Shown here in pieces: positions 4,903 through 30,001 of a stretch of DNA of 64,000 nt (position 1 is its first letter; each line of letters opens with the position of its first letter). Origin of the DNA: Motilibacter deserti (lineage in GTDB: Bacteria > Actinomycetota > Actinomycetes > Motilibacterales > Motilibacteraceae); assembly GCF_011250635.1 (NCBI RefSeq), contig NZ_JAANNP010000002.1, positions 380,478-444,477 on the forward strand. Reading direction: 5' to 3'. A program made the translations under genes and the position numbers. Below the pieces are notes generated by a model. It had not been told where the DNA came from and did not search any database. It saw nothing but the letters and a program-made list of their open reading frames with translations.

Positions 4903-5799
4903 ATGCGCGCGCTGCTGAGCCTGGCCGGCGTGGACGTCCCCGCAGGGGTCGACGCCGCGGTGTGGGACGCCGACGGCCCGCCCCCGCCGGGCGTGGAGGA
5001 CGTCGAGTTCTACGTCCCGCCGTACGGCCGCGGCCCCGAAGGGATGTCGCTGCTGGAGCGCATGCCGCGGCTGCGCGTGCTGCAGACGCTCAGCGCCGGC
5101 GTCGAAGGCGTTCTCGGCCTGGTGCCCGACGGCGTGACCCTCTGCAACGCCAAGGGCGTCCACGACGCGTCCACGGCTGAGCTCGCGGTCGCGCTGATGC
5201 TCGCGGCGCAGCGCGACCTGCCCGCCTACGTGCAGGCCCAGCAGGCCGGGCGGTGGACGCCGACGTCGACCGTGGGCCTCGCCGACAGCACAGTCCTCAT
5301 CCTCGGGTACGGCGCGATCGGCGAGGCGGTCGAGCGCCGGCTGGCGGGGTTCGAGGTCGAGGTGCTGCGCGTCGCCCGACGGGCCCGGCCCGGCGTCGCC
5401 GCGCTGGAGCAGCTGCCGGAGCTGCTCCCGCGCGCCGACGTCGTCCTCGTGCTCGTCCCGCTCACCGCGGCCACCCGCGGGCTCGTCGACGCGCAGCTGC
5501 TCGCGCGGATGAAGGACGGCGCGCTGCTCGTGAACGTCGCTCGGGGCGCGGTCGTCGACACCGGTGCGCTGCTCAATGAGCTGGCTTCGCGCCGGCTGCG
5601 GGCGGCGCTCGACGTCACCGACCCCGAGCCGCTGCCGGAGGGGCATCCACTGTGGACGGCCCCCGGACTGCTGCTCACGCCGCACGTGGGTGGCGGGACG
5701 GCCGCGATGGGGCCGCGGGCCCGCGCGCTCGTCGCGGACCAGCTCGCGCGCTGGGCGGCCGGCGAGCCGCTGCGCAACGTGATCACCGGGGAGTACTGA
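4903..5799 (+). CDS. D-isomer-specific 2-hydroxyacid dehydrogenase (NAD-binding)
   Basis: A 298-residue cytosolic dehydrogenase. The nucleotide-binding fold has LGYGAIGEAVERRL (about 155-168). The catalytic Arg is in VNVARGAVVD (about 216-225), the Glu in DPEPLPEGHPLW and the His in TPHVGG. Substrate is not predictable; phosphoglycerate, glyoxylate or hydroxypyruvate reductase are family options. True serA is elsewhere (20937). ATG 4903 is preferred to the upstream in-frame ATG 4825 because homology begins there. A -10-like TAGCGT at 4888-4893 leaves almost no leader, suggesting leaderless expression. The next gene follows after 6 bp. Confidence 0.88.
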   Translation: MRALLSLAGVDVPAGVDAAVWDADGPPPPGVEDVEFYVPPYGRGPEGMSLLERMPRLRVLQTLSAGVEGVLGLVPDGVTLCNAKGVHDASTAELAVALMLAAQRDLPAYVQAQQAGRWTPTSTVGLADSTVLILGYGAIGEAVERRLAGFEVEVLRVARRARPGVAALEQLPELLPRADVVLVLVPLTAATRGLVDAQLLARMKDGALLVNVARGAVVDTGALLNELASRRLRAALDVTDPEPLPEGHPLWTAPGLLLTPHVGGGTAAMGPRARALVADQLARWAAGEPLRNVITGEY

Positions 5800-5805
5800 G
5801 GCCGC

Positions 5806-6537
5806 GTGGCCCGGCTTCTCGTCGACGCCCCGCTCCGGCTCTTCCTGCCCGCGCGGTCGCGGGCGGGGGCCGTGGACGTCGACGTGCACGCCGACCCCAC
5901 CGCGTCGGTCGGGCACGCGGTGCAGGCCGCGGGCGTGCCGCTGACCGAGGTGGGGGAGCTGCAGGTCGCGGGCGCGCGCGTACCGGCCGGGCGGCGGCTG
6001 GGCCCGGACGACGAGGTGGAGGTCCGCGCCCGGCCCCGGCCGCAACCGCTCGACGGCCCGCCCACGCTGCTCCTCGACGTGCACCTGGGCGCGCTGGCGC
6101 GCCGGCTCCGGCTGCTCGGGGTCGACACCGCGTACGCCAACGACGCGAGCGACCCGCAGCTGGTCGAGCGGGCGGCGGCCGAGGACCGGCTGCTGCTGAC
6201 GCAGGACCGCGGGCTGCTGCGGCGACGGGCGCTGCGGCGGGCGGCGTACGTGCGCGGTGCCCGCCCGGACGACCAGCTCGAGGACGTGCTCGACCGGTTC
6301 GAGCTGCCGGTCGCGCCCTACACCCGCTGCACCGTCTGCAACGGCCGGCTCGAGCCTGTGGCCAAGGCCGACGTGGTCGACCGCCTCGAGCCGGGAACGC
6401 AGCGGACGCAGGAAGTCTTCGTCCGGTGTGTGGAGTGCGCGCGGGTCTATTGGCACGGTGCCCACTCGGCCCGCCTCGACGAGCAGGTGCGCAGGCACGC
6501 GCGCCGTCGCGGCCCTGGCGGCGACGCCTCCGGTTGA
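5806..6537 (+). CDS. Mut7-C RNase with N-terminal ubiquitin-like domain
   Basis: A 243-residue two-domain protein. Residues about 1-82 form a ThiS/ubiquitin-like fold (Mut7-C ubiquitin family). Residues about 85-235 form a Mut7-C domain: a PIN-like nuclease core with acidic residues (LLLDVHLG, LLTQDRGLL), then a zinc ribbon with CTVCNG (about 178-183) and CVEC (about 206-209). The family is predicted to cut RNA; its target in bacteria is unknown. The start is GTG 5806, 6 bp after the dehydrogenase, so the two are probably co-transcribed. The ubiquitin-like part ends without a GG tail, so it is not expected to be conjugated. Confidence 0.85.
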   Translation: MARLLVDAPLRLFLPARSRAGAVDVDVHADPTASVGHAVQAAGVPLTEVGELQVAGARVPAGRRLGPDDEVEVRARPRPQPLDGPPTLLLDVHLGALARRLRLLGVDTAYANDASDPQLVERAAAEDRLLLTQDRGLLRRRALRRAAYVRGARPDDQLEDVLDRFELPVAPYTRCTVCNGRLEPVAKADVVDRLEPGTQRTQEVFVRCVECARVYWHGAHSARLDEQVRRHARRRGPGGDASG

Positions 6538-6722
6538 GCGACGAACGGCGGGGGTTGCGGCGTTCCCGCTTTCTGCCCGCTTTCGACGGTCGCGGCGACT
6601 GTCGAGCACCAGCCGATCGGGGAAAGGGCAGGTGTCGCTCGCGCGACGTAGCCTGGTCAGGGCCTGTGCCCGTCCGACGGCTCCCGAAGAGATCGTTCCG
6701 CGTCGACCTCGGAGGTCCCTGC

Positions 6723-7493
6723 ATGATCCTCAAGCACCGAGGCTTGCCCCTGGTGCTGCTGGCCGGGCTCGCCACCGCCGCGTGCGGGAGCTCGGACGCG
6801 GCCGACGACACGGCCGCGCCCTCTGCGCCTTCCGGGCCCACGGGGGCGTGCCCGGACACGCTGGAGCCGCTGCTCAAGACCGACGAGGCGGCGAAGGGCG
6901 AGATCACCGTCGCCATCGACCAGTCCGGGTCCTACTGGAACTCCGCGTCGGCCGAGGCGCGCATCCGCCCGCAGGTCGAGGCGGTCGTCGCCGACGCGGT
7001 CGAGCAGTCCCGCGCGCTGCGCGTCATCACCTTCACCGGCACCGCGTCCGGGGCGCAGACCGTCTTCGCCTGCGCGAACCTGCTGCCGGCGCACAACAAC
7101 GAGGCCGCGCTGGCGCAGAAGCAGCGCTACGTCACGCAGGAGGCCGCACAGCTCGTGTGGTCCCAGCTGACCGCCGCGCGCGCCCAGCCCGCGCCCTCCG
7201 CGCCCGGCACGAGCATCGTCGGCGGGTGGCTCGCCGTCGCCCAGAGCACGCCGCTGGCCCCCGAGGGGACGCCGCGCGACGTCGTCATGCTGACCGACGG
7301 CGCCGGGCTCCCGGAGCAGTCGGTCGAGGTCGACCTGTCGGCGTTCGCGACCGTGGAGATGCACGGCATCGGTGCGGTGGACGGCGCCCCGTGGACCACC
7401 GAGCGCACTGTGAAGACGATCGACCAGTGGTCGGAGTGGCTGCGCGGCTCCGGTGCCCCGGCCCCCGAGGTCTCGAGCCAGTCCTACGTCTGA
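6723..7493 (+). CDS. Lipoprotein with von Willebrand A-like (MIDAS) domain
   Basis: A 256-residue predicted lipoprotein. The signal peptide ends at TAACGS (Cys about 21); position -3 is Thr, so the lipobox is imperfect. A Ser/Ala/Pro linker follows. From about residue 58 a VWA-type fold is visible with all three metal-site elements: DQSGS (about 65-69, the DxSxS motif), Thr in PGTSIVGG (about 162), and Asp in VMLTDGAG (about 190). Such domains bind a protein partner through a divalent metal. A strong GGAGG (6711-6715) precedes ATG 6723. It is the first gene of a four-gene unit with two membrane proteins and a second VWA protein. The exact partner and function are unknown. Confidence 0.75.
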   Translation: MILKHRGLPLVLLAGLATAACGSSDAADDTAAPSAPSGPTGACPDTLEPLLKTDEAAKGEITVAIDQSGSYWNSASAEARIRPQVEAVVADAVEQSRALRVITFTGTASGAQTVFACANLLPAHNNEAALAQKQRYVTQEAAQLVWSQLTAARAQPAPSAPGTSIVGGWLAVAQSTPLAPEGTPRDVVMLTDGAGLPEQSVEVDLSAFATVEMHGIGAVDGAPWTTERTVKTIDQWSEWLRGSGAPAPEVSSQSYV

Positions 7494-7548
7494 CCCTGCA
7501 CGTCCAGCACCGCCCCTCACCCCAACTCCTACGTCGGAGGACCGCCTC

Positions 7549-8847
7549 GTGAGCGACGACGGCACGGCCCGCAGCAGGGGCGATCGCAGCACGTACGACC
7601 CGCGGGGCTTCGCGCCGCCGGACGGGCGCCCGTCCACCGGCCCGCTCGAGGGCCGGCTCCGCAAGGAGGAGCCGACAGGGCAGCCCGCCCTGACCAAGTC
7701 GGCCGCCATCCGGCTGGCCGGCGGGCTCGGGCGCAGCATCCACGGCTCGATGCTGACCAAGCCGGACATCCGTCGGCTGACCCGGGCCGCGACCGCCGCC
7801 AAGTCGGCCGCCCACACCGAGCTCGCGCTGCTGCGGGCGACGGCGGAGGCGCAGGAGCGCAGGCAGCAGCTGTTGGACACGCCGACCGCCGTCCGCCCCA
7901 TGCGGCCGGTCACGTCGCTGTTCTTCACCGCGCTGCTCATGGCCGCGAGCTACTTCACGATCAACCAGATCCTCGCGGTGGCCGACGTGCCGCCGCTGGA
8001 GTCCTACCTGCTGCCGATCGGCTTCGCGCCGGTCTTCGTCATCGGCACCAAGCTGCTGGTGTCGGGCTGGCTCTCGGCCAGTTCCGACGACGTCGAGGGG
8101 CTGGGACGGCGCAAGCGCGCGGTCTTCGCGCGGGCGGTGCTGCCGACGCTCGTCCTGGCAGCCATCGGCCTCGTCGTCGGCGTGAGCCTCAAGGGCATGG
8201 CGGTCGGCGCCTTCGAGCCGCTGTCGGACAGCACCTCGCGGCTCTCGTCCGCGCTGATGTTCGGCGGCCTCGTCCTCGCCGAGCTCGCGGGCGCGGCCGG
8301 CCTCGCGGCCTACCAGGCGACGCCGAAGGCGCAGGAGTTCGAGCGCGCCGAGCGGCGAGACCAGGCCGCGCAGCGCCGGCTGACCGGCGCGCTGCGCCGG
8401 CACGCGAAGGCCGAGCGGCTCTCGGGCAAGCGGCAGGCGCAGGTCCAGGCGCACCAGGACTGGCGGGCCGCCCGCGGCCAGCTCGGCCGGGTCAAGGGCC
8501 TGCTGGACGCCTACAAGGCCTCGCCTGACGACAGCGCTCTCTTCGACTACGCCGAGGTGCGCGCGCCGGTCTACGCCGCGCCCGTCGAGGAGCTCCTGCA
8601 GGCGCCCGAGGCTCCGATGCCGACCTCGCGCGACGAGGACAGCCCGCGCCGGGCCGCCAGCAGCACCCGGCCTTGGGAGGAGCGCCGTCCCCCCGTCGAG
8701 GACGGCCAGGTGATCGACCTGCGCACCGAGCTGCTGCGCACCGTCCGCGGCCACCTCGGCCGGCCGAAGGCCGAGCGTCCGCAGCCGAGGCCGGAGGACC
8801 GGGGCAGCGAGCGCCCGGCGGCCGGCGAGCGGGACACGGGGGCCTGA
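7549..8847 (+). CDS. Four-helix membrane protein with long cytoplasmic coiled coil, unknown function
   Basis: A 432-residue protein I do not recognise. Residues 1-115 are charged and probably cytoplasmic. Four membrane helices lie at about 121-142, 153-174, 193-214 and 233-255. They are followed by a Gln/Arg/Ala-rich coiled coil (about 258-330) and a disordered charged tail. No catalytic motif is seen. CGGAGG (7535-7540) lies 8 bases before GTG 7549, which fixes the start. Its stop overlaps the start of the next gene (ATGA), so translation is coupled to the second VWA protein. By position it could be a membrane scaffold between the extracytoplasmic VWA proteins and the cytoplasm; that is inference. 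Confidence 0.75.
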   Translation: MSDDGTARSRGDRSTYDPRGFAPPDGRPSTGPLEGRLRKEEPTGQPALTKSAAIRLAGGLGRSIHGSMLTKPDIRRLTRAATAAKSAAHTELALLRATAEAQERRQQLLDTPTAVRPMRPVTSLFFTALLMAASYFTINQILAVADVPPLESYLLPIGFAPVFVIGTKLLVSGWLSASSDDVEGLGRRKRAVFARAVLPTLVLAAIGLVVGVSLKGMAVGAFEPLSDSTSRLSSALMFGGLVLAELAGAAGLAAYQATPKAQEFERAERRDQAAQRRLTGALRRHAKAERLSGKRQAQVQAHQDWRAARGQLGRVKGLLDAYKASPDDSALFDYAEVRAPVYAAPVEELLQAPEAPMPTSRDEDSPRRAASSTRPWEERRPPVEDGQVIDLRTELLRTVRGHLGRPKAERPQPRPEDRGSERPAAGERDTGA

Positions 8848-9815
8848 TGCCGCTCTGGCGTCGGGGCATCCCGACCCGGCCGAGCTTCCCGGGCGCCCGC
8901 TACCCGGGGCTGCCCAGCGACCGCAGGGTGCCGTGGCTGCTCCTGCTCCTCCCGCTGGCCGCGCTCGCCGGCTGGGGCGTGCCGCAGCTGCTCGAGGACG
9001 ACCCGTCCCCGCAGGCCGCGGCGTCGGGCGCGATCGGCGGGACCTACCTCGAGGGGGAGCGGGCGCTCGCCGGCAAGCTCTGCATCGCGATCGCCAGCGA
9101 CACCTCCACCTCGATGGACCAGGTCGAGCCGCTGCGGCGCGAGGCGACGAACGAGCTGCTCCCGTGGCTGCGCGCGAACCTGCCCGCCGACGACGAGGTC
9201 GCGCTCGCGGTGTTCACCGACGAGGCGCTCCTGACGCTGGCGCCGACGCCGGTCGGCAGCGCGCCGGCGGCAGCCCCCGGCGAGGTCCCGGTGGGCACCG
9301 GCCAGACGGTGGCCACGACCGCGGCGGACGCCCTGGGGCAGGCGTTCGGCGGCCGCTCCTGCGCCTCGACGGCGCTGCTGGCGATCAGCGACGGGGAGTT
9401 CCAGGACGAGGCGGGGCCGCTGGCCGCCGCCCTCGACGCCGCCGGCATCACGCAGACCTGGGTGCTCAACCCCAAGGGCCCGGAGCGCTCGCCGGTGCTG
9501 CAGAGCCCCGAGCTCGCCGACGTGCACGTCACCCCGATCTCGACCTCGGACGACATCGGGCTGACCTTCGCGCGGGTTATCGCCGGGCTGACCGGCCAGC
9601 GGCTGGCCGGCGCGCCGACAGCGGCGCCTGCGCCCGCCACTCCCCAGCCGGGCGCACCGCAGCCGGGTGCCACGGTCCCTCAGCCGCCCCAGCCGACGGC
9701 GAGCGCACCCGCTCCCGGTGCGCCCGCGCCGGCCCCCACCGCACGGCCCGGCACCCCCGCACCCTCCAGCTCCGCCACCACGCCCGCGCGGCCTCCGGAC
9801 GCCGTGGACGCGTGA
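8847..9815 (+). CDS. Membrane-anchored von Willebrand A-like (MIDAS) protein
   Basis: A 322-residue protein with one N-terminal membrane helix (about 30-47) and an extracytoplasmic VWA-like domain (about 75-265). The metal-site residues are present: DTSTS (about 85-89), a Thr in GTGQTVATT (about 150-158), and Asp in LLAISDGEFQD (about 180). The C-terminal 60 residues are a Pro/Ala/Thr wall-spanning type tail. ATG 8847 overlaps the preceding TGA, and its own TGA overlaps the next GTG. It resembles the lipoprotein at 6723 only in fold. Two MIDAS proteins in one operon without a MoxR-type ATPase is unusual. Function unknown. Confidence 0.75.
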   Translation: MPLWRRGIPTRPSFPGARYPGLPSDRRVPWLLLLLPLAALAGWGVPQLLEDDPSPQAAASGAIGGTYLEGERALAGKLCIAIASDTSTSMDQVEPLRREATNELLPWLRANLPADDEVALAVFTDEALLTLAPTPVGSAPAAAPGEVPVGTGQTVATTAADALGQAFGGRSCASTALLAISDGEFQDEAGPLAAALDAAGITQTWVLNPKGPERSPVLQSPELADVHVTPISTSDDIGLTFARVIAGLTGQRLAGAPTAAPAPATPQPGAPQPGATVPQPPQPTASAPAPGAPAPAPTARPGTPAPSSSATTPARPPDAVDA

Positions 9816-10690
9816 GCCGGCGGCGGGGCCCGCTCCCGGAGGACGGGCCTCCGTCCGGCGCGATCGGCCCGGTGCGCGACGAGAGCGAGGACGGCGACCC
9901 GTGGCTGGCCGACGAGCTGGCCGCCGGGCCCGACCAGGAGCGTGAGCCCTCCCGTACTGGGCGGCTCGCCGGCCGGGCGGCCGCCGTCCTCGTTCTCGGC
10001 GTGCTCGTCGCCGCGGTGGCTGACCTGCCCGCGCAGCTTGCTGGCGACCCGCCGGTGCCGGATGCCGCGGGGCCGCGCGTGCCTGCCGTCGCCGGGTGGC
10101 CGCTGCGTGGAGACCTCGCCAGCGCCCTGCGCCGGCCGGAGTCCCCCGTCGCCCAGGCGGCCCGGAGCCTGCTGGCCGACGAGCCGGGGACGGTGCTCGT
10201 CTGGGGCGGCACGGTCGCCGGCACGAAGGCGCTGCTCGCCGTCGAGCCCGGGCCGCCCGCCGGGCGCGGCGTCGTCGCCTACCAGCCCCCGCGCGGCAAG
10301 TGGTCCCGCGTGACGGTCCGGCCCGCCCGCGGGGGAGCGGCGGGGTGGGCGGTCATCCTCCCGACGCCCGTCTTCGGCCGGGCCCTGCTCGCCGTCGGCC
10401 CGCCGGGCGTGCGGCTGCCCGAGGCCGGCCGCCGTGTCGACCCGCACCAGAACGGCGGCCGCGGGCGGTTGTCCTGGTCGTCGATGCCCGGCTGGAACGG
10501 CGCCGGGATCCTGCCGCTCGAGGGCACCTCCACCGCGTCGGTGTCCGTCCGGCTGCCGGCGGGCAGCGCGGGCCCGGCCGACGTGCCGGTGCCGGTGACG
10601 GTCGCGGTCGGCCCGCCCCGGACCGGCGCGCGCCCGACGCCTCGACCGGCGCTCTCGCCCGACCCCTCCTGGCTCGGCGGGCTGGGGTGA
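9812..10690 (+). CDS. Single-pass membrane protein of unknown function, last gene of the VWA operon
   Basis: A 292-residue protein. The N-terminal 50 residues are acidic and Gly/Pro-rich, then one membrane helix (about 54-72), then an extracytoplasmic region of about 215 residues. That region contains a Gly-rich beta-type segment with [19 protein letters not shown] (about 215-233). I recognise no family. The start is GTG 9812, overlapping the preceding stop by 4 bases, so it is translationally coupled. The C-terminal Pro/Arg-rich tail looks disordered. There is no Cys in the extracytoplasmic part. It is tied to the VWA proteins by gene overlap only. Confidence 0.7.
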
Positions 10691-10817
10691 CCCGCCGCGC
10701 CACGGCGTCCGGCCGCCCGCGTCTCACCACGCGGCTGTCCGCGCCGTCCTCCTCCGCGCGTACGTAACATCGTCCGGGTGCCGAAGCCGCCGGCACCGCG
10801 AGAGACAGGATGTTGCA

Positions 10818-12539
10818 GTGACAGCCGAGACAGACGCCGCAGCCCGCCCGCAGCCGGACCTGAAGCCGCGCAGCCGCGTAGTCACCGACGGGCTCGAGGC
10901 CACGGCGTCGCGCGGGATGCTGCGCGCCGTGGGCATGGGCGACGAGGACTTCGCCAAGCCGCAGATCGGCGTCGCCTCGTCCTGGAACGAGATCACGCCC
11001 TGCAACCTCTCCCTCGACCGGCTCGCGAAGGCCGCGAAGGACGGCGTGCACGCCGGCGGCGGGTTCCCGATGGAGTTCGGCACGATCTCCGTCTCCGACG
11101 GCATCTCGATGGGCCACGAGGGGATGCACTTCTCCCTCGTCTCGCGCGAGGTCATCGCCGACTCTGTCGAGACCGTGTTCGGCGCCGAGCGCCTGGACGG
11201 GTCCGTGCTGCTCGCCGGCTGCGACAAGTCGCTGCCCGGCATGCTCATGGGCGCGGCGCGCCTCGACCTCGCCTCGGTCTTCCTGTACGCCGGGTCGATA
11301 CTGCCGGGCCGGGCGAAGCTCTCCGACGGCTCGGACCGCGAGGTCACGATCATCGACGCGTTCGAGGCGGTCGGCGCCTGCGCTCGCGGCCTGATGTCGC
11401 GCGAGGACGTGGACGCGATCGAGCGCGCGATCTGCCCGGGCGAGGGCGCCTGCGGCGGCATGTACACCGCCAACACGATGGCCGCGGCAGCCGAGGCGCT
11501 CGGCATGTCGCTGCCCGGCTCGGCCGCGCCGCCCGCCACCGACCGGCGCCGCGACGGGTTCGCCCGCAAGTCCGGCGAGGCCGTCGTGAACCTGCTGCGC
11601 CAGGGCATCACCGCTCGCCAGATCCTCACCAAGCCCGCGTTCGAGAACGCGATCGCCGTCGTCATGGCGCTCGGCGGCTCGACCAACGCGGTGCTGCACC
11701 TGCTCGCGATCGCCAACGAGGCCGAGGTCGACCTGACCCTCGACGACTTCGCCCGCATCGGCGCGAAGGTCCCGCACCTCGGCGACCTCAAGCCCTTCGG
11801 CCGCCACGTGATGGTGGACGTCGACCGCATCGGCGGCATCCCGGTCGTGCTCAAGACGCTGCTCGACGCCGGCCTGCTTGACGGCGACACGCTGACCGTC
11901 ACCGGCAAGACGATGGCCGAGAACCTCGCCGAGCTCGACGCCCCCGGCCCCGACGGCGAGGTCATCCGCAAGATGTCCGAGCCGATCCACAAGACCGGCG
12001 GCATCACGATCCTGCGCGGCTCGCTCGCCCCGGAGGGCGCCGTGGTGAAGTCCGCAGGCTTCGACACCGCGGTGTTCGAGGGCACGGCCCGCGTCTTCGA
12101 GCGCGAGCGCGCCGCCATGGACGCCCTCGAGGACGGCACCATCCAGTCCGGTGACGTCGTCGTCATCCGCTACGAGGGCCCGAAGGGCGGCCCCGGCATG
12201 CGCGAGATGCTTGCGATCACCGGCGCCATCAAGGGCGCCGGGCTCGGCAAGGACGTCCTGCTGATGACCGACGGGCGCTTCTCCGGCGGCACGACCGGCC
12301 TCTGCGTCGGCCACATCGCACCGGAGGCGGTGGACGGCGGCCCCATCGCGTACGTCCACGACGGCGACCGGATCCGGCTCGACGTCGAGAACGCGACCCT
12401 CGACATCCTCGTCGACGAGGCCGAGCTCGAGGCCCGCACCGAGGGCTGGGAGCCGCTGCCGCCGGTCTACACGCGCGGGGTGCTCGCGAAGTACACCAAG
12501 CTCGTGAAGTCCGCCGCCCAGGGCGCCGTCTGCAACTGA
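10818..12539 (+). CDS. ilvD: Dihydroxy-acid dehydratase
   Basis: A 573-residue enzyme dehydrating 2,3-dihydroxy-isovalerate and 2,3-dihydroxy-3-methylvalerate to the 2-keto acids of valine and isoleucine synthesis. Iron-sulfur ligands are visible: Cys62 (TPCN), Cys135 (GCDKSLPGM) and Cys206/212 ([15 protein letters not shown]). The C-terminal swivel domain carries [14 protein letters not shown]. The length is normal. GTG 10818 is preceded by AGGA (10807-10810). An apparent -10 (TAACAT, 10764-10769) lies upstream, separating it from the VWA operon. It stands upstream of ilvBNC but is separated from it by an attenuator, so the two units can be controlled independently. Confidence 0.97.
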
Positions 12540-27790: not shown

Positions 27791-30001
27791 TCACCAGAGC
27801 CCGAGCTCGCGCCCGCGGGCGACGGCCTCGGCCCGGGAGCCCACCCCGAGCTTGCGGTAGAGCGCCTTCGCGTAGCCCTTGACCGTGTTGATCGACAGCC
27901 CGAGCTCGGCCGCGAGCGCGGGCTGCGCGAGGGGGCCGCGCAGAGCACGGAGAACGGACAGCTCGCGGGCGGTCAGCGGCTCGACGAGCTGCGCCGCCGT
28001 CCCGCCGGCCTGGACGCGCCCGGCCCGCTGCTCGAGCATCGTGGCCTCCTCCTCGAGGAACGGCATCGCCGGCGCCTCGTCGAGTGCCGCCCGTGCGGCG
28101 TCCAGGCGCGCGAGCGCACCGGACGGGCTGGCGCAGGCCAGCTCCTCGTGCGCGGCCGCGACGAGCACGAGCGCTGCGATGCCCGGGTGCGAGGCCGCCG
28201 TCAGCTCCGAGGCCGCCGTGCGCAGGGCGGCGAGCGCGCCGGCGGCGTCCCCGCGGTGCCGGGCGAGCAGGCCTGCGGACGCGTCGAGCAGGGCGAGGCT
28301 CGGCCCGGCGGCGGCGCCGAGCTCGTCGCGCAGCCGCCGGGCCTCGTGCGCGGTGGCCGCCACCAGCCGGGCGAGCTCGTCCCAGGCGTGCGCCCGGCAG
28401 AGGGCCCAGGCGAGCAGGCCGGCGGTCTCCGTGCGCGAGGGCGCGGGCAGCGCGGCGGTCGCAGGCGCACGCCAGGCGGCCTGCAGCGCGTCGACCGCTG
28501 CGTCCACGTGACCCGCGCAGAGCAGGGCCCCGCCGAGCGCCACGTGGGCCACGACGAATCCGGGCAGTGCCGGGTCGTCCTCCTGGGCCACCGCCTGCCG
28601 GGCGTACGCCTCGGCGACGTCGGGCAGGTCGCCCGGCCCGGCGTGCACGGAACGCAGGGCCGCGACGACCGACCGGCCGCAGCGGAAGCCGGGCAGGTCG
28701 AACGCGGCCTCGGCCGCGTCGGCGACGGCCAGGAACCGGTGTACGTCCTGGCGTCGCCCTGACTGCCCGGCCGCCCACGCGAGCAGCGTCGCGAGGGCGG
28801 GGCTCGTGCGAAGGCGAGCCTCTCCCACGGCCTCGCCGAGGGACACGAAGGACCCGAGCGCGCCGGACGCGAGGAACGTGGCGGCCTGCCCGAGCAGGAG
28901 GGCGACGGCCGCGCCGCTGTCCCCGGCGTCGAGCAGCAGACGGACGGCCGGCTCGGGCTCCCCACGCGCCGCGAGGGCGCTCGCCGCGCGCCGGGCCGCC
29001 TCCTGCCGGCCGGGGTACGCCTGGCGCAGCAGCCCGCGCCGGAAGACGGGGTGGCAGGAGTACGCCGCTCCGTCCTGGGCCACGAAGGCGCCGGCACGTT
29101 CGAGCGCCCGCAGGACGTCCGCCGATCCCTCGGCGCCGAGCGCGGCGTCGCAGAGGGCCGGCTCGAGGACGGGGAGCACGGCTGTGACGAGCAGGAAGCC
29201 CCGCTGACCCGGGGGCAGCCCCTCGAGCACCTCGGCGATCAGGTAGTCGGCCATCTGCTCGCGGCCCCTCGCCCGGGCGTGCTCGACGGGGCGCGGCGAC
29301 CCGGCCGCGAGGGCGGCGAGCACGACGCCGGCGGCCCACCCGTCGGCCTCCTCGAGCACGTCCGCCGGCACCTGCGCGGCGCCCGGCCCGAGAACGGCGT
29401 CGAGGAGCGCTCGCTGCTCCCTCGGCGTGAGCCGCAGCTCGTCCGCCGCGAGCTCGCGGAGCAGGCCGCGCGCCCGCAGCCGTGGCAGGGCCAGCGGCGG
29501 CGCGGACCGGGACACGAGCACGACGCGCAGGCCGGGCGGCAGGTAGTCGAGGAAGAGCTCGAGGCCCTCGTGGACCTCGCCGCTGGTGACCGCGTGCAGG
29601 TCGTCGAGCACGAGCACGCCGGGCCCGTCCCCGATCCCGTTGAGCAGTTGCGGGACCGCGTCCTCCAGCGGGTTGGAGCCGGCGACGGCGAGCGCGCGAT
29701 CGGCGCGGGCGGCGGCGTCGGGGGACACGGCGGACAGGCCGGCGGCGACGTACGACCAGAAGCGCCGGGGGTCGTCGTCCCCCGCATCCAGCGACACCCA
29801 CGCCACGGGCAGGCCGCAGCCCGCCGCCCAGTGCGCGACCAGCGTGGTCTTCCCGTAGCCCGCACCGGCCACGACCGTGGTGACGGGCGCGTCACCCCGG
29901 TCGAGCGCGGCGAGCAGCCGGTCCCGTGCCACGAGGGTGGACGGGGCACGGGGGAGACGGGTCTTTGCGGCGAGCAGCGTGCCGCGACCGTCGCCGCCCA
30001 T
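27791..30001 (-). CDS. Large ATP-binding LuxR-family (MalT/LAL-type) regulator
   Basis: A 736-residue transcription regulator. The Walker A motif is GAGYGKTT (about 46-53) and the Walker B-like motif is VLVLDDLH (about 128-135), forming a STAND-type ATPase. The middle (about 300-640) is helical TPR-like. The C-terminal LuxR helix-turn-helix has PLTARELSVLRALRGPLAQP and LGLSINTVKGYAKALYRKLG (about 665-725). Such proteins are switched on by a small ligand plus ATP; the ligand is unknown. The ATG at 30001 follows GGAGGGGG. It faces the hydrolase-glycosyltransferase pair across a repeat-rich 218-bp gap and probably controls them, by position. Confidence 0.9.
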   Translation of the reverse strand: MGGDGRGTLLAAKTRLPRAPSTLVARDRLLAALDRGDAPVTTVVAGAGYGKTTLVAHWAAGCGLPVAWVSLDAGDDDPRRFWSYVAAGLSAVSPDAAARADRALAVAGSNPLEDAVPQLLNGIGDGPGVLVLDDLHAVTSGEVHEGLELFLDYLPPGLRVVLVSRSAPPLALPRLRARGLLRELAADELRLTPREQRALLDAVLGPGAAQVPADVLEEADGWAAGVVLAALAAGSPRPVEHARARGREQMADYLIAEVLEGLPPGQRGFLLVTAVLPVLEPALCDAALGAEGSADVLRALERAGAFVAQDGAAYSCHPVFRRGLLRQAYPGRQEAARRAASALAARGEPEPAVRLLLDAGDSGAAVALLLGQAATFLASGALGSFVSLGEAVGEARLRTSPALATLLAWAAGQSGRRQDVHRFLAVADAAEAAFDLPGFRCGRSVVAALRSVHAGPGDLPDVAEAYARQAVAQEDDPALPGFVVAHVALGGALLCAGHVDAAVDALQAAWRAPATAALPAPSRTETAGLLAWALCRAHAWDELARLVAATAHEARRLRDELGAAAGPSLALLDASAGLLARHRGDAAGALAALRTAASELTAASHPGIAALVLVAAAHEELACASPSGALARLDAARAALDEAPAMPFLEEEATMLEQRAGRVQAGGTAAQLVEPLTARELSVLRALRGPLAQPALAAELGLSINTVKGYAKALYRKLGVGSRAEAVARGRELGLW

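Follow-up and report, generated by a model that had tools for sequence, protein, structure and literature searches.

A rare gene set with two VWA-type proteins, a four-helix membrane protein and no neighbouring ATPase in Motilibacter deserti

Introduction

Bacterial VWA cassettes are commonly taken as partners of MoxR ATPases. Can two VWA proteins serve a membrane system in which such an ATPase is missing? The question is raised by a locus in the 5.0-Mb genome of Motilibacter deserti, for which an earlier note had proposed an undescribed envelope system of four genes, encoding two VWA proteins with complete metal sites (MIDAS), a four-helix membrane protein and a one-helix protein. The genes, here g1 to g4, lie on the plus strand at 6723-10690 of the window, the whole stretch of 64,000 nucleotides that was analysed, between a Mut7-C RNase gene (5806-6537) and ilvD (10818-12539). 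All feature coordinates below refer to the plus strand of the window.

Results

All four genes were present over this span in the order first described. The first, g1 (6723..7493, 256 amino acids), codes for a secreted lipoprotein with a predicted VWA fold, g2 (7549..8847, 432 amino acids) for the four-helix membrane protein, g3 (8847..9815, 322 amino acids) for a membrane-anchored VWA protein and g4 (9812..10690, 292 amino acids) for a one-helix protein with an extracytoplasmic domain. The start codon of g2 is a GTG at 7549 with a GGAGG ahead. Overlaps of the ATGA and GTGA type had been described for the joints between the last three genes; the GTGA overlap of g3 and g4 was confirmed, while the g2/g3 junction proved to be a TGATG at 8845-8849, a one-base overlap, and not an ATGA. 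A search for a sigma-70-type promoter gave no match, a result that is weakly informative in a GC-rich actinobacterium. All four genes recur, equally ordered and next to ilvD, in the second genome of the genus (G001), with amino-acid identities of 64-92 %. Within the genus, dN/dS amounted to 0.19 for g1, 0.13 for g2, 0.26 for g3 and 0.39 for g4, with 0.09 for ilvD, and purifying selection acts on all four genes. GC3 values of 0.94-0.97 were similar to that of ilvD. Conserved order and ilvD adjacency, low dN/dS and GC3 identify g1 to g4 as real coding genes. In the sister species (L010 8543-9988, minus strand) the N-terminus of g2 is about 50 residues longer, of low complexity and with a GTAP repeat.

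The gene set is known from two independent lineages only. Frankia sp. AgKG'84/4 carries g1, g2 and g3 at 6-767, 764-2197 and 2194-2991 of a 7.8-kb contig, in the same order, with ATGA and GTGA overlaps and about 30 % identity. The contig has no ilvD, hence these three genes stay together apart from ilvD, as a survey of the neighbourhood had been expected to reveal for a single system. The fourth gene did not follow: g4 is absent beside the Frankia genes and is the fastest-evolving of the four, with 64 % identity within the genus. By sequence comparison g4 is therefore an accessory gene, found only in the genus. As the Frankia set is without g4, the conserved core consists of three genes, g1-g2-g3, with g4 optional, and the initial view of a four-gene system had to be given up.

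In searches of 394 genomes of the class with g2 as single sequence and as profile, full matches were obtained in three only, the two of the genus and G224, taken to be the Frankia genome; the g3 profile had full-length matches in the same three among 375 class genomes. Across 84,980 species genomes, the alignment pattern of g1 was found in Frankia sp. AgKG'84/4 alone, by a scan that requires short conserved peptides, may omit the window's own and near genomes, and may let distant members escape. Neither a further g2 among 35 genomes of the family of Frankia nor an orphan copy of g1, g2 or g3 in the genomes searched was found; the largest searches scored about 4-6 candidates per genome, and diverged copies may be missed. 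Other matches of the g3 profile (G067, G172, G216, G259, G368) covered the VWA core only. Weak whole-genome matches (G071, G387, G732, G073, G108/G050/G106) were discarded, being short, low-scoring or partial in query cover. The set is rare and patchy across the genomes searched.

None of the four window products gave a significant match in Pfam, NCBIfam, PADLOC or PHROGs, and in PADLOC they remained without a family match even at E <= 1. A PADLOC match to Frankia g2 (0.024) was taken as chance level. These libraries, together with a limited literature search in which no description was found, agree with the earlier suggestion of novelty: the gene set appears undescribed, yet built from a known fold.

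That fold is most easily recognised in g3. The protein has a single N-terminal membrane helix at about residues 28-49, followed by an extracytoplasmic VWA domain, which is placed outside because positive charge precedes the helix. A three-sequence profile matched BatB (PDB 3ibs, E 1.3e-7) and an aerotolerance-related membrane protein (4jdu, E 3.8e-6); Frankia g3 matched Pfam VWA_2 with an E of 2.3e-4, slightly short of the Pfam cut-off. A Pro/Ala-rich C-terminal tail is present in the window and missing in Frankia. Helix, profile match and tail bear out the description of g3 as a membrane-anchored VWA protein with a Pro-rich tail.

For g1 the same holds in part. The lipoprotein assignment is supported by the lipobox, which reads LATAAC|GSS (TAAC) in the window species; the sister species has VAGC at this place, and Frankia LAGC. 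A VWA domain could not be recognised by sequence profile, and hhalign detected no relation between g1 and g3 with three-row profiles. The domain emerged in the AlphaFold2 (AF2) model, at about residues 56-256. Although of low confidence (pLDDT 54, pTM 0.58), the model is consistent with this assignment: in a fold search with VIA the 50 best matches were all VWA-type domains with Z of about 10-12, among them integrin I domains, VWF A1 and the VWA domain of Rpn10, which reached Z 12.4 across 165 residues. A VWA fold is thus predicted for g1, and the low pLDDT restricts the detail more than the fold assignment. According to the positive-inside charge pattern, the VWA domains of g3 and g1 are both predicted to face outside.

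Both proteins had been reported to keep all three MIDAS elements, and the three-sequence alignment corroborates this, with elements invariant or conservatively changed in Frankia. In g1 these are D66-Q-S-G-S70 (6918..6932; DFTGS in Frankia), T163 in PGTSI or PGTDI (7209..7211) and D192 in MLTDG (7296..7298), in g3 D85-T-S-T-S89 (9099..9113; DVSSS in Frankia), T151 (9297..9299) and D182 in SDGE (9390..9392).

Between the two VWA genes lies g2, conserved in Frankia with 29 % identity. Four hydrophobic segments, at about residues 120-144, 154-176, 194-217 and 232-257, agree with the four helices assigned before; from the charge pattern, N- and C-terminus are predicted inside and short acidic loops outside. 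The long cytoplasmic coiled coil of the earlier description is less certain. In the AF2 model, poor as a whole (pLDDT 50, pTM 0.28), the last membrane helix is predicted to continue into a long cytoplasmic helix (residues 227-324, 8227..8520; pLDDT about 70-76 over 271-320), which may form a coiled coil. The g2 tail contains a short conserved helix (residues 388-406, 8710..8766) with the alignment pattern V...R.EL.R....H...P, modelled as helix over 391-402 and kept in Frankia. The tail is otherwise disordered, and from the three-sequence alignment the helix is a possible docking motif.

The absence of an ATPase from the VWA genes was confirmed. No P-loop motif occurs on open reading frames of at least 150 amino acids within 17 kb of the operon, and the nearest one on such a frame in the window starts at 27794; the Frankia locus (L016) has none either. 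A different contig of the same genome carries a MoxR-type P-loop frame (GVPGVAKT) among VWA genes (L052, G000:C256:114000-127000). This cluster is probably the canonical MoxR-VWA system of the organism, and therefore the cassette is not. No MoxR AAA+ ATPase adjoins the cassette, as it would in a MoxR-vWA system, and in place of the MoxR, DUF58 and BatA-E genes of a Bat operon the neighbours are genes for a 2-hydroxyacid dehydrogenase, Mut7-C and ilv functions.

Discussion

What could such a set do? We tentatively propose, at somewhat less than even confidence, that the g1, g2 and g3 proteins are subunits of one complex in the cytoplasmic membrane, which would act in adhesion or in sensing at the envelope and signal inward. 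The proposal builds on the shared order, overlaps and co-occurrence of the three genes, the conserved MIDAS elements, the VWA folds, the membrane topology, the purifying selection and the separate MoxR-VWA cluster. Outside, the lipid-anchored VWA domain of g1 and the membrane-anchored one of g3 would bind an acidic ligand through a divalent metal. This could be a protein, a polymer of the wall or surface, or g2 with its own acidic outer loops, the first of which carries a conserved Asp (D146) as a possible internal MIDAS ligand. The g2 protein would couple the ligand state of the VWA domains to its cytoplasmic helices and tail, and these may dock a partner encoded elsewhere. With no ATPase present, the binding of ligand and metal, and not ATP, would drive the switching. 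To this complex g4 would add a lineage-specific extra outer domain.

By analogy, g2 might instead be a small channel or transporter with the two VWA proteins as outer regulatory subunits, as alpha2delta is for Cav channels. In favour of this unlikely alternative, a lipid-anchored VWA protein adjoins a multi-pass protein, and g2 has in its short first outer loop an Asp, D146, conserved in the three-sequence alignment, which a MIDAS could bind in the manner of alpha2delta-Cav pairs. A precedent is alpha2delta-1, whose VWA domain touches a Cav1.1 domain at its first loop (PMC6231325). However, g2 was above the cut-off for no channel or transporter family, a pore or filter motif was not recognisable in it, and its model is too poor for judging this role.

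A scaffold for envelope assembly or stress protection, similar to BatA/BatB and operating without a dedicated ATPase, would suit the finding that BatB-type VWA domains are the nearest solved relatives of g3. We consider it rather improbable, since neither MoxR nor a further Bat-type gene was found at the window, G001 or Frankia loci, and the predicted outward orientation of both VWA domains would put them out of reach of a cytosolic MoxR from elsewhere. Doubtful, too, is a bacterial integrin-like receptor, in which two outer MIDAS heads, held by a lipid tether and by a membrane helix, respectively, would be coupled free of ATP via g2 to a cytoplasmic coiled coil.

The genomic site bears on the idea of a horizontally spread cassette for defence or interbacterial conflict. 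In the genus the interval from the 2-hydroxyacid dehydrogenase gene to ilvD (window 5799-10818) holds Mut7-C and the cassette. In three relatives of the family from two other genera it is empty or differently filled: 78 bases in G002, an oppositely oriented frame for a secreted-looking protein in G003, and in G004 a gene that we take to encode a methylenetetrahydrofolate reductase (MTHFR-like). The interval is thus a candidate variable site, and the cassette may have been gained in the genus or lost by the relatives. Such variation and the very patchy distribution would fit a defence role, as would a WD40 protein near the Frankia set whose N-terminus matches TIR weakly; we nevertheless regard this role as very unlikely, as no PADLOC family rose above chance, an effector-like enzyme is missing, tblastn against plasmids and phages and scans of viral contigs gave no match, and the composition is normal, with no mark of recent arrival. 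The Mut7-C RNase has an N-terminal ubiquitin-like domain; the corresponding intervals of the three relatives contain nothing that matches this RNase. The stretch beside the Frankia set that codes for the WD40 protein (L016 3105-6521, minus strand) also encodes a possible lipoprotein without a Pfam family.

That the genes are mere neighbours, each acting alone, would agree with the lack of conservation of g4 alongside g1-g3 and is hardly credible, since g1-g2-g3 occur together in two distant families with their order and overlaps kept.

The proposed three-subunit complex can be set beside several known systems. CglB is a part of the myxobacterial gliding machinery; as generally described, VWA lipoproteins of this type share with g1 a lipid-anchored VWA domain, but among the genes around the cassette none for gliding was noted. 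The alpha2delta subunits of Cav channels and the integrin I domains resemble the proposed complex, by analogy only, in that a VWA domain with a MIDAS lies at the outer surface and is linked to a transmembrane protein, whereas a sequence relation to channel or integrin chains does not exist and g2 is unrelated. The MoxR-vWA ternary systems (VMAP, iSTAND, FtsH; PMC7159879) likewise occur in actinobacteria as multi-gene cassettes with a VWA component; they rest on an AAA+ MoxR ATPase, which the cassette does not have. If the proposal is true, the VWA fold is put to a different use here, metal-dependent binding outside and passive coupling to the inside with no ATPase. The rarity of the set limits its general importance, and the set is small and directly testable. 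The resemblance to the Bat proteins (BatA/BatB) lies in g3, a membrane-anchored VWA protein with profile matches to 3ibs and 4jdu; instead of a MoxR partner, the cassette gives it the lipid-anchored VWA protein g1 and the four-helix protein g2, for which a long cytoplasmic helix is predicted.
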